A stretch of 45,766 nt of DNA from Bacteroidales bacterium (GTDB taxonomy: Bacteria; Bacteroidota; Bacteroidia; Bacteroidales; Paludibacteraceae). The position numbers and the translations under genes were made by a program. Of this stretch, positions 11-45,766 are shown one piece after another. Position 1 is the first letter of the stretch. Every line of letters begins with the position of its first letter. Below the pieces are notes generated by a model. It searched no databases and was not told where the DNA came from. It saw only the letters and a program-made list of their open reading frames with translations. The stretch spans positions 1 to 45,766 of the forward strand of contig JAJFVH010000069.1 in the NCBI GenBank assembly GCA_021371875.1, written 5' to 3'.

Positions 11-33
11 GCCCCCTAACCCCCTAAAGGGGG
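11..33. repeat. GC-rich palindromic repeat, single copy
   Basis: A C-run, the dinucleotide AA, then a C-run/TAAA/G-run hairpin (CCCCC at 20-24, GGGGG at 29-33) stands out in AT-rich sequence. The same architecture (C-run, two-base break, C-rich arm, A-rich loop, G-rich arm) occurs twice inside leuS at 44311-44340 and, reversed, at 44387-44416. I infer one dispersed REP-like family. The window starts too close to say whether the element extends further upstream. Confidence 0.55.
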
Positions 34-375
34 AATAATACAGGTACTTTGAGTTTTGTTATTTTATAATCATCTCCTTGTGTGTCCTGATTTTTAATCT
101 CGGTCATGGGGGTTTCATCTGTTTAAATTTTAGAACAAAGAGCAAAGAAAAAAGAGTAAAGGCATTACTAATCATGCCTTTGTGTGTCCAAAATCTTTGA
201 TCATGTTAGTTTCATACGATTAAATTTATAAATTTGACAACAAAGATATGAAAAATTGCACATTTACAATAATAACGTGCAGGTTGTATGTTGCTTTCCT
301 TTGAAAAAACAACAAATTTTATTTGTATAAAAATTTAAATACTTTATTTGAAACGGCTTTTACAAGGTTTTTGTT
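34..375. other. AT-rich intergenic stretch
   Basis: No gene is visible here. The only structure seen is a short hairpin at 158-181. Any gene served by this sequence on the left lies outside the window. Confidence 0.5.
158..181 (+). terminator. weak hairpin, possible terminator
   Basis: AAAGGCAT and ATGCCTTT form an 8-bp stem around an 8-base loop, ending in TTTGTGTG. The T-tract is poor, so this could be a terminator for a gene left of the window or simply a chance hairpin. Confidence 0.3.
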
Positions 376-42715: not shown

Positions 42716-45577
42716 ATGGAGTACAATTTTAAAGAAATAGAGCAGAAGTGGCAAGCTTATTGGAAAGAAAAAGAAACTTACAAAGTTGATGCAAATCCCG
42801 AAAAACCCAAATTTTACGTTTTGGATATGTTTCCCTATCCTTCGGGAGCCGGATTGCATGTGGGACATCCACTTGGCTATATTGCTTCCGATATTTTCAG
42901 CCGCTACAAACGCTTGCAGGGTTTCAATGTACTCCACCCGATGGGTTACGATGCTTATGGTTTGCCGGCAGAACAATATGCCATCCAAACGGGTCAACAT
43001 CCGGCTGTTACCACCAAAAAAAATATCGACCGCTATCGCGAACAATTGGATAAAATAGGTTTCTGTTACGATTGGAGTCGCGAAATCCGAACCTGCGACC
43101 CCGATTATTACCAGTGGACCCAATGGGCATTTATCCAAATGTTTAACCATTTTTTCGATACACAACTTCAGAAAGCCCAACCGGTTACGGCACTTGTAAA
43201 AATGTTTGAGGTTTCAGGGACAGAAGAAATCCAGGCTGCGTGTACCGAAGAGATGACTTTCACTGCCGAAGAATGGAAAGCAAAAACCGAAAAAGAGCAA
43301 CAGGAAACTTTACTCAATTATAGAATTGCCTATCTGGCAGATATGAAAGTAAATTGGTGCCCGGCGTTGGGAACCGTTTTGGCCAACGACGAAGTTAGTG
43401 AAGGCGTTTCCGTTCGCGGCGGTCATCCGGTGGAACAACGCGTTATGCGACAGTGGAGTTTGCGTGTTTCGGCTTATGCACAGCGTTTACTCGATGGACT
43501 CGACAAAATCGACTGGACCGAGTCGCTGAAAGAAACCCAAAAAAACTGGATTGGACGCAGCGAAGGTGCGGAAATGAGATTTTCCATCTCCTCTGGAGAA
43601 GCTCAGGGAGAGGTGCTTACGGTTTTCACCACCCGCGCCGATACCATTTACGGCGTAACTTTCATGGTACTTGCACCCGAAAGCGAATTGGTAAAAGTTT
43701 GCACAACTTCCGGGCAAGCTGCCGAAGTTGAAAATTATATTGCAGCCACAAAAAGACGCACCGAACGCGAACGCATTGCCGACCGACGGGTTACAGGCGT
43801 TTTTTCCGGTTCGTATGCCATCAATCCGGTAAGCGGGACTGAAATTCCTGTCTGGATTTCGGATTATGTGTTGGCAGGTTACGGAACCGGCGCCATTATG
43901 GCTGTTCCGGCGCACGACAGCCGCGACTATGCTTTTGCCCGGCATTTTAACCTGCCAATCATTCCGCTTATCGAAGGTTGCGACGTGAGCGAAGAAAGTT
44001 TTGATGCCAAAGAAGGCATCATGATGAATTCAGGTTTTCTGAACGGAATGACTGTGAAAGAGGCTATTGCGAAAGCTAAAGAATATATTTCCGAAAAAGG
44101 AATCGGACGTGTGAAAGTAAATTATCGTTTGCGTGATGCCATTTTCAGTCGCCAACGCTATTGGGGCGAGCCATTCCCCGTTTACTACAAGAACGGGATG
44201 CCTTACATGCTCGACGAAAGCCGCTTGCCACTCGAATTGCCCGAAGTGGATAAATTCCTCCCGACCGAAAAAGGCGAACCACCGCTGGGACGTGCCAAAA
44301 ATTGGGAATACCTCCCCCCATCCCCCTCCAAAGGAGGGGGCGAGAACTCTGATTCAAACTCGCAAAACGTTGATGGTTTGCAGTCTCCCTCCCCTTCGGG
44401 GAGGGTTGGGGAGGGGTATCCGCTCGAATTGAATACTATGCCCGGTTTTGCCGGTTCGTCGGCATATTACCTGCGTTACATGGATCCGAAAAACGACAAA
44501 GCCTTGGTGAGCAAAGAAGCAAACGAATACTGGCGCAATGTGGATTTGTATATCGGAGGAACCGAACATGCCACCGGTCACCTGATTTACAGCCGTTTCT
44601 GGAATAAATTCCTTTTCGATTTAGGGTTGGTTTGCGAAGATGAACCATTTAAAAAACTGATTAACCAGGGAATGATTCAGGGACGAAGCAATTTTGTTTA
44701 CAGAATAAAAGACACGAATACTTTTGTTTCGCTGAATCTGAAAAATCAATACGAAACGACGCCGATTCACGTGGATGTCAATATTGTTTCGAACGACATT
44801 CTCGATATTGAAAAATTTAAGAACTGGAATCCTGAATACAAAACGGCCGAATTTATTCTCGAAGAGGGAAAATACCATTGTGGTTGGGCAGTCGAAAAAA
44901 TGTCGAAATCGATGTACAATGTGGTGAATCCCGATGATATTGTGGAAAAATATGGCGCCGATACACTGAGGCTTTACGAAATGTTTCTTGGGCCGCTCGA
45001 ACAATCGAAACCTTGGGATACCAACGGCATTGATGGCGTCCACCGCTTCCTGAAACGCTTGTGGAGTTTGTTTTATAAAGATGGAATTTTCGTTGTAACC
45101 AATGATGAGCCGACCGCCGAAGAGCTGAAAGCTTTACACAAAACGATAAAAAAAATCACGTTCGATATTGAAAACTTTTCGTACAACACCTCCGTTTCGG
45201 CTTTTATGATTTGTATCAACGAATTGTTCACATTGAAATGCAGCAAAAAAACCATCCTCGAACCTTTGGTTATTTTGCTTGCACCTTTTGCGCCGCATGT
45301 AGCCGAAGAACTGTATCATGCACTTGGAAATGAAACAACGGTTTGCGATGCGGTTTTTCCTATCTGCAATGAGGAATACCTGAAAGAGTCAGCCGTGAAA
45401 TATCCCATTTCATTTAATGGAAAAGTTCGTTTCATGTTAGAGCTTCCTGCCGATATGAGCAAGGAAGATGTAGAAAAAACGGCTTTGACAAACGATCAAA
45501 CGATCAAACAGCTGGATGGAAAAGCGCCTAAAAAGGTGATTGTGGTTCCCGGAAAAATTGTGAATATAGTCATATAA
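42716..45577 (+). CDS. leuS: leucyl-tRNA synthetase with palindromic insertion
   Basis: A 953-residue class Ia synthetase charging tRNA-Leu. HIGH motif is HVGH at 48-51 ([14 protein letters not shown]), the CP1 editing domain has [15 protein letters not shown] and the [15 protein letters not shown] editing site, [13 protein letters not shown] marks the return to the catalytic core, and KMSKS is at 728-732. Residues 533-567 (between NWEY and [11 protein letters not shown]) are an in-frame, Pro/Ser/Gly-rich segment encoded by two inverted GC-rich palindromes; removing it leaves about 918 residues. No frameshift or stop is created and all catalytic motifs are intact, so the enzyme is expected to work. 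Confidence 0.97.
44309..44418. repeat. inverted pair of GC-rich palindromes inserted in leuS (REPIN-like)
   Basis: Left copy: CCTCCCC-rich run (44311-44319), then an 8-bp hairpin CCCCCTCC/AAA/GGAGGGGG (44322-44340). Right copy: hairpin CCCTCCCC/TTC/GGGGAGGG (44387-44405), then GGGGAGGGG (44408-44416). Read on the opposite strand the right copy has the same order as the left. Outer ends ATACC(T)CCCC and GGGG(A)GGGGTAT are near-perfect inverted repeats. The spacer (44341-44386) is ordinary-looking sequence. The doublet adds 105 bases in frame. Confidence 0.75.
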
Positions 45578-45650: not shown

Positions 45651-45766
45651 AATCCCGTTAGGGATTTAATATCGGTAGAATTATTCGCCCACCCTCGTTT
45701 GTTGCACCCCGTACGGGGTGCTATATGTGTGTGAAAATGTCTTTCTACCGATATTATATGCCTACG
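45651..45766. repeat. mosaic palindromic repeat at the right edge
   Basis: Three nested structures: AATCCC-GTTA-GGGATT (45651-45666); a perfect 18-base palindrome GCACCCCGTACGGGGTGC (45704-45721); and a perfect 14-base inverted repeat TAATATCGGTAGAA (45667-45680) / TTCTACCGATATTA (45743-45756) that encloses it. The element probably continues past the window. Similar CGGTAGAA/TTCTACCG modules with a CCCnTAnGGG centre are, as I recall, dispersed in many Bacteroidetes genomes. Confidence 0.7.

Follow-up and report, generated by a model that had tools for sequence, protein, structure and literature searches.

The leucyl-tRNA synthetase gene leuS of a Bacteroidales bacterium (Paludibacteraceae) carries, within its reading frame, two inverted copies of one palindrome. 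The gene occupies positions 42716-45577 (forward strand) of contig JAJFVH010000069.1, the 45,766-nucleotide stretch of DNA that was analysed as a whole and is called the window here, and its product of 953 residues contains the Pfam tRNA-synt_1, editing and anticodon domains. The question raised by this locus is how such a palindromic doublet comes to lie within an essential enzyme, and what could have moved it there. The original prediction read it as a REPIN mobilised by a RAYT transposase. Our analysis points elsewhere: the doublet is probably a short form, lacking the nuclease, within a family of homing-type coding elements of Bacteroidota that are inserted in frame, bounded by palindromes and free of splicing. 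This reading draws directly on empty and filled sites, a common end design, recurrent in-frame sites, purifying selection, kinship to a homing endonuclease and a conflict between element and host histories at two sites.

Both palindromes belong to a single unit at 44310-44417 (forward strand), which codes for residues 533-567 plus edges and is delimited by its sequence, its fold and an empty site in a congener (G024). It is built from an outer arm, a C-rich hairpin, a 46-nt spacer, the inverted hairpin and a further outer arm, and the two arms largely pair (ACC...GGT). The left arm, ACCTCCCCCCAT (44310-44321), pairs with the right arm, TTGGGGAGGGGT (44406-44417), in the fold and in the consensus of ten doublets. 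For the left hairpin, CCCCCTCC-AAA-GGAGGGGG (44322-44340), the fold is joined by paired changes on both sides in relatives; for the right hairpin, CCCTCCCC-TTC-GGGGAGGG (44387-44405), it is joined by the consensus of relatives. The spacer (44341-44386) has a core, TCGCAAAACGTTGA...TTTGC, that alignments relate to the spacers of other in-gene doublets. Folded as DNA, positions 44305-44422 reach -30.3 kcal/mol (z -3.97), and 0 of 200 shuffles folded equally well. The inverted orientation, the 46-base spacer and the near-matching outer ends described in the original prediction are all borne out.

The reading frame stays open throughout leuS, and the insert adds the predicted 35 residues. The source genome (G000) reads NWE-Y-LPPSP...VGEG-YPLEL at this place, and G024, the closest congener compared (LeuRS 95% identical), reads NWEINGYPLEL and has an empty site, as expected if the native protein lacks the segment. 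Relative to this empty allele (NWE-ING-YPLEL), the insert and its Tyr replace three residues, a net gain of 33. The proposed position between the editing and catalytic domains is not strictly upheld: residue 457 is the last of the editing domain as delimited by Pfam and a conserved stretch begins at 473, and the insert lies past both. The insert presumably occupies a loop, a position that we infer because the predicted LeuRS model (mean pLDDT 57) was too poor to be used for placing it.

To place the doublet in a family, 60 genomes including G000 were searched. All gave a LeuRS match (at paralogue level only in G020, G025 and G045), and 50 loci, fewer than the genomes, entered the LeuRS alignment. 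The site that is empty in G024 is filled by doublets in G016, G027 and G034 as well as in G000, and further LeuRS doublets occur at core positions 631 (G026) and 681 (G027, G034). Within the source genome, IleRS (35 codons) and AlaRS also bear in-frame doublets. Those of the three LeuRS sites, IleRS and AlaRS can be aligned end to end, spacers included, and in the ten-doublet consensus 7 of 22 pairs show changes on both sides. A covariance model built on these ten, which match it by construction, gave matches at E <= 0.01 in 39 of the 60 genomes, the source genome among them; strong matches outside the training set include G034 C100, G020 C85 and G011 C206. The leuS doublet, itself a training copy, is matched at 44309-44419. 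The source genome has 32 matches to the model, counting both strands. In another search of that genome, two matches (L010, L019) lie outside hairpins and were discarded as chance. A loose C-rich hairpin pattern matched 188 times there, against 4 times in a reversed control. The spacer profile picked up one doublet beyond its building set, in G034. The insert is a repetitive, mobile-type insertion, as had been proposed. Near the leuS doublet no signal of co-conversion was seen; between G000 and the other doublet carriers, a fraction of 0.43-0.49 of the synonymous codons is already different.

Two side observations concern the same genes. Besides its doublet, the AlaRS of the source genome (L002:2-2464) contains the palindrome-type peptides SLPTSPLTPLLEERGV and SLSLNPSPTERDFEEG, and single ends seem to pile up in the same genes in this way. 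The LeuRS of G002 (L051) and G015 (L054) has an in-frame insert of ~80 residues at core positions 629-646, with no DUF559 match.

DUF559 is the domain that marks a larger form of the element. In seven relatives LeuRS is lengthened in frame by 137-187 residues at position 291, immediately ahead of FTTRADT, and the added part consists of a hairpin-coded linker, a DUF559 domain and another hairpin-coded linker. Five of these carriers (G016, G021, G026, G027, G034) belong to the genus, among 30 genus genomes whose position was read, and two (G037, G054) to other families of the order. The full element runs as one open frame from outer arm and C-rich hairpin through DUF559 to the second hairpin and outer arm. 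DUF559 is present in 37 of the 60 genomes. All three domains found in the source genome are embedded in frame, in ValRS (just before ATTRPET), IleRS (before FPADFI) and MetH. Across the genomes the embedded copies are hosted, mostly at recurrent sites, by LeuRS, IleRS (two sites), ValRS, MetH, PurL and UvrA; these hosts were identified by similarity or reading, and Pfam backs the identity of one protein each for all six. The LeuRS, ValRS and first IleRS sites are equivalent, lying just before a TTR/TTT motif where the editing domain begins. Two further hosts (L139 in G024, L150 in G002) read like DNA methylases, and L119 is another host; L150 also contains repeated LLPSFGGAGGGQTSENK-type linkers. 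A Pfam scan (E <= 0.001) of nine host proteins detected DUF559, its relative MTES_1575 and the hosts' own domains but no intein or splicing domain, so the nuclease should remain part of the host protein.

The ends tie the larger and shorter forms together. The flanks were counted for 71 of 89 DUF559 hits, the others being duplicates of a locus, hits at a contig edge, or hits that scored less than 60 bits or were shorter than 95 aa. Under a strict rule, C-rich hairpins stand on both sides of 46 copies (20 of 28 embedded, 26 of 43 others), and 67 copies have at least one flanking hairpin; at 355 random places in the same loci they were two-sided once and one-sided 30 times (Fisher p below 1e-25). 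An arm and a hairpin bound both doublets and DUF559 forms, with end sequences that vary between subfamilies. The two forms also share sites. At the IleRS site before AWTTTPW, G004 and G022 have DUF559, and G000, G011, G020 and G025 have a doublet. At leuS position 291, where the seven relatives have DUF559, G000 and G024 have a lone right end, better preserved in G024. In the window this is TCCATCTCCTCTGGAGAAGCTCAGGGAGAGGT (43583-43614, forward strand, in frame, residues 290-300), a degraded right-end hairpin with outer arm which, compared with G024 and with full elements, is probably a solo-hairpin scar at the site of the full element. A search with the doublet spacer profile, aimed at an origin of the doublets by internal deletion, gave only doublets above chance, and that route was rejected. 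As the spacer matches no DUF559 element interior, the argument that doublets would have arisen by deletion comes from the shared ends and shared sites.

Is the mover nevertheless a RAYT, as first proposed? A REPIN moved by a RAYT (a Y1 HUH transposase) would likewise be a unit of two inverted palindromes present in many copies per genome, and a PF01797 search does find two Y1_Tnp genes in the source genome (a third could be missed, the bin being 88% complete). A RAYT gene is present, then, but neither is flanked by a leuS-type doublet: one lies between GGTGCGTAGCACC palindromes, the other beside AATCCCGAAGGGATT, ACCCCGACAGGGGT and relatives. The doublet also lacks the GTAG/CGTC foot, with no GTAG, CTAC, CGTC or GACG on either strand of 44305-44422. 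C-rich hairpins do stand beside Y1_Tnp genes above the random level (both sides in 4 of 30, one side in 5, against 1 and 30 of 355 random places; two contig-edge loci are omitted), but those inspected singly were other sequences, such as TCCCCGTAGGGGA and CCGCCAAAGGCGG. Y1_Tnp hits are absent from 12 of the 60 genomes, three of them hairpin-rich; genus genomes without a hit include G019, G020 and G032, with 175, 132 and 89 hairpin-pattern matches. Across 36 genus genomes, hairpin number is rank-correlated with the numbers of both DUF559 (rho 0.68) and Y1_Tnp (rho 0.53), and the partial correlations are 0.54 with DUF559 given Y1_Tnp and 0.26 with Y1_Tnp given DUF559. The searches of the 60 genomes, the flank inspection and the correlations do not support a RAYT as the partner of the doublet, and we regard a REPIN origin as quite improbable. 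On the best reading, the protein partner of these C-rich hairpins is DUF559 and not Y1_Tnp.

Other palindromes in the window bear on the same question. Downstream of leuS lies a different pair, at 45654-45666 (CCCGTTAGGGA) and 45707-45718 (CCCCGTACGGGG within GCACCCCGTACGGGGTGC), of a general type seen near some Y1_Tnp genes of relatives; it is a better candidate than the leuS doublet for a RAYT-type REP. The third single copy claimed at 11-33 proved to be a related-type single hairpin and not a full copy: positions 11-41 (forward strand), where the contig ends, hold one C-rich hairpin and its outer arm, GCCCCCTAACCCCCTAAAGGGGG, and the end is of the type found in intergenic doublets, for example L013. 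At E <= 0.5 the covariance model matches only the leuS doublet within the window. Separately, two large proteins, L314:142-4149 (G016, 1336 aa) and L315:302-3991 (G021, 1230 aa), have an in-frame Y1_Tnp (HUH) match before an NPPY motif, followed by NKGLQPLV repeats. They read like restriction-modification proteins and are perhaps a second kind of in-frame embedded mobile nuclease.

If DUF559 is the partner, the identity of the domain becomes central. Pfam lists it as of unknown function. Its profile matches PDB 3hrl (3e-30) and 3r3p, the homing endonuclease I-Bth0305I (E 6e-6). The predicted fold (pLDDT 88.8) likewise matches 3hrl and 3r3p (Foldseek E 2e-5, TM 0.69/0.78 for the latter), as well as PvuRts1I (E 0.002) and, weakly, Vsr (E 0.04). 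All of the 22 domains that were aligned, selected from 76, share E21, D49, E60, D62 and H66. A DUF559 gene has already been assigned to the EDxHD family (PMC9403480), and a Caulobacter DUF559 protein is connected with DNA damage (PMC12907096). Between same-site copies dN/dS is 0.04-0.40 where computable, and on this comparison the predicted nuclease is under purifying selection.

Selection of this kind, together with the recurrence of fixed positions, would also suit a useful host domain acquired by the enzymes, the doublets then being ordinary linkers. Such a domain would have been taken up by unrelated hosts (synthetases, MetH, PurL, UvrA, RecG) and its presence is patchy, with LeuRS 291 occupied in 5 of the 30 genus genomes read; hairpin borders, scars and the disagreement of element and host histories at two sites speak against it further, and we consider this explanation very improbable.

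That disagreement is one of several signs of homing. In a tree of 76 DUF559 domains (113 columns), 31 embedded copies lie together on the same side of a branch with support 87, and within them the copies group by site (support 98 for PurL, 99 for IleRSb, 95 for IleRSa and 94 for ValRS). The LeuRS-site copy of G037 groups with MetH copies, which suggests from the tree a second invasion of the LeuRS site; a single LeuRS clade is not rejected (p-AU 0.22). In ValRS, G000 and G024 differ at 7 of 101 synonymous codons in the element against 193 of 555 in the host, and downstream of the element at 12 of 91 in codons 0-100 against 94 of 261 in codons 100-400 (p 3e-5). MetH shows the reverse, with elements 52% identical in hosts that are 96% identical. 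Element and host-gene histories conflict at these two sites, as homing predicts.

The architecture extends beyond the genus. In a draw across the phylum, DUF559 occurs in 166 of 395 genomes, and among the best 150 matches listed (two from the source genome) 39 lie in open reading frames (ORFs) of at least 500 aa. A contig scan listed at least 556 relatives within 587 stretches, of which the best 80 were kept; five rows for second domains scoring no more than 3 bits were dropped, leaving 80 domain hits. We take the scan records, from their titles, to be Bacteroidota with the exception of one Limnohabitans bin, the RecG of which resembles that of flavobacterial loci. ORFs of 350 aa or more contain 57 of these hits, a biased fraction since the query favoured the embedded lineage, and most of the 57 have two-sided C-rich hairpins under a looser rule that had no control there. 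The hosts among the listed matches, by reading, include ValRS, LeuRS, IleRS, RecG, MetRS (L268), MetH (L275) and others, with Pfam support for L212 (RecG), L265 (LeuRS) and L268. This spread also bears on whether the insertions might be artefacts of assembly. The source genome is indeed a bin of 233 contigs, 88% complete, but isolate records show the same architecture (e.g. Flavobacterium difficile, Maribacter luteus, Tenacibaculum gallaicum and Cellulophaga baltica), and the single-contig genomes G162, G165, G191 and G295 have DUF559 in ORFs of more than 800 aa. In the genomes behind the isolate records L265 (C. baltica) and L266 (Dysgonomonas sp.), no LeuRS match is strong other than the ORF that contains DUF559. 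An artefact is barely credible on these grounds.

Several observations weigh against a homing-type family as we have drawn it. The tree behind the embedded clade was built from 113 columns, the branch that sets the clade apart is unstarred, and the copies in the two methylase-like hosts are not part of it. In ValRS, the stretch of low divergence upstream spans only the last 20 codons (1/16), followed by 13/38. Over 46 same-site pairs, element divergence is significantly lower in 5 and higher in 1 (p<0.001), and 40 are non-significant; PurL pairs are generally lower in element divergence, part of which may be composition. Cleavage by these DUF559 proteins is a predicted activity. Hairpin number tracks Y1_Tnp number too, and the 36 genus genomes are mutually non-independent. 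By the strict count, hairpins are missing from both flanks in 1 and from one flank in 7 of the 28 embedded copies, as against 3 and 14 of the 43 others. Among the loci compared, all matches of the spacer profile that rose above chance were doublets, and the interior of a DUF559 element was never matched, although absent similarity over 46 nt is weak evidence; the doublets may form a lineage of their own whose ends are of similar type.

Some of these points, with two more, favour a repeat family in the style of the Rickettsia palindromic elements (RPEs), with an unknown mover, in which DUF559 genes would be cargo that landed repeatedly between two copies. The doublet spacers form a family of their own, a short doublet in G034 directly adjoins the DUF559 element at leuS 291, and two hairpin-rich genus genomes, G011 and G025 (196 and 145 hairpin-pattern matches), have no DUF559 hit, but both are fragmented and genes could be missed. 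Cargo of this kind is harder to reconcile with the hairpin flanks that most DUF559 copies have kept, with the C-rich hairpins that border most copies listed across the phylum (by the looser, uncontrolled rule), or with embedded DUF559 forming a single lineage divided into subclades by site, a pattern not expected from chance capture. We judge it unlikely, and our preferred reading is still that the leuS doublet is a short relative of a DUF559 homing-type element. For the wider proposition the balance is about even: that a class of selfish elements homes into Bacteroidota housekeeping genes without splicing, its nuclease being a domain of the host enzyme (synthetases, MetH, PurL, UvrA, RecG), its hairpin ends doubling as flexible linkers and its nuclease-less descendants making up the common in-gene palindromes.

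To gain some insight into how such an element might spread, we propose the following scheme. The element would be translated within the host protein and presumably tolerated by sitting in a loop. The nuclease, made as part of that protein, would cut an empty allele of the same gene, for example in incoming DNA or after transfer to a new cell, and repair would then copy the element across with some flanking sequence. The palindromes may hold both ends together as a cruciform, may supply stop-free Pro/Ser/Gly linkers, and may favour internal deletion, leaving short doublets and single-hairpin scars. Doublets such as that in leuS would have to move in trans, and DUF559 would be what moves them.

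If true, this would mean that homing endonucleases can persist in essential genes without introns or inteins, given no more than a tolerant loop, and that elements can invade conserved genes by staying in the protein. It would explain in-frame palindromes and odd Pro/Ser/Gly linkers of Bacteroidota proteins, and it would give DUF559 a function. It would also provide natural examples of large in-frame insertions tolerated at fixed places in essential enzymes, in the annotation of which DUF559 would count as a foreign domain. Searches of the open literature, outside which most subscription papers fall, brought up among the papers listed no account of DUF559 elements that lie in frame and are bounded by palindromes.

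Known systems resemble the element in part. Inteins with a homing endonuclease differ in their splicing domain, which the nine DUF559 hosts lack. They are alike in occupying fixed in-frame sites in essential enzymes, in site-specific lineages and in patchy spread (for inteins partly from PMC3943268). RPEs, which the literature describes as occurring in frame within genes, are alike in being palindromic repeats that stay open in the frame of host genes, as in LeuRS, IleRS and AlaRS here; the likeness, which the original prediction rightly noted, is by description. Intragenic GTAG/CGTC REPs sit in protein genes that include tRNA synthetases and uvrA, according to PMC3733652. From both of these the doublet differs by the absence of the tag, by its C-rich two-hairpin design with outer arms and by longer, nuclease-coding relatives. 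With REPINs it shares the unit of two inverted palindromes and the many copies, and it differs in having no REP tag, the RAYT genes of its own genome bearing other repeats. Miniature inverted-repeat transposable elements (MITEs) are similar as short, nuclease-less copies that share their end design with a longer coding element; the doublet differs in that it has no proven transposase partner, its larger relative is homing-like and a common interior was not found. Closest in protein is the EDxHD (Vsr-like) homing endonuclease I-Bth0305I (PDB 3r3p), which DUF559 matches by profile and predicted fold. I-Bth0305I has extra DNA-binding regions (PMC3943268) and is listed as a mobile intron protein, whereas the DUF559 element lies in the frame of a housekeeping protein between palindromes.

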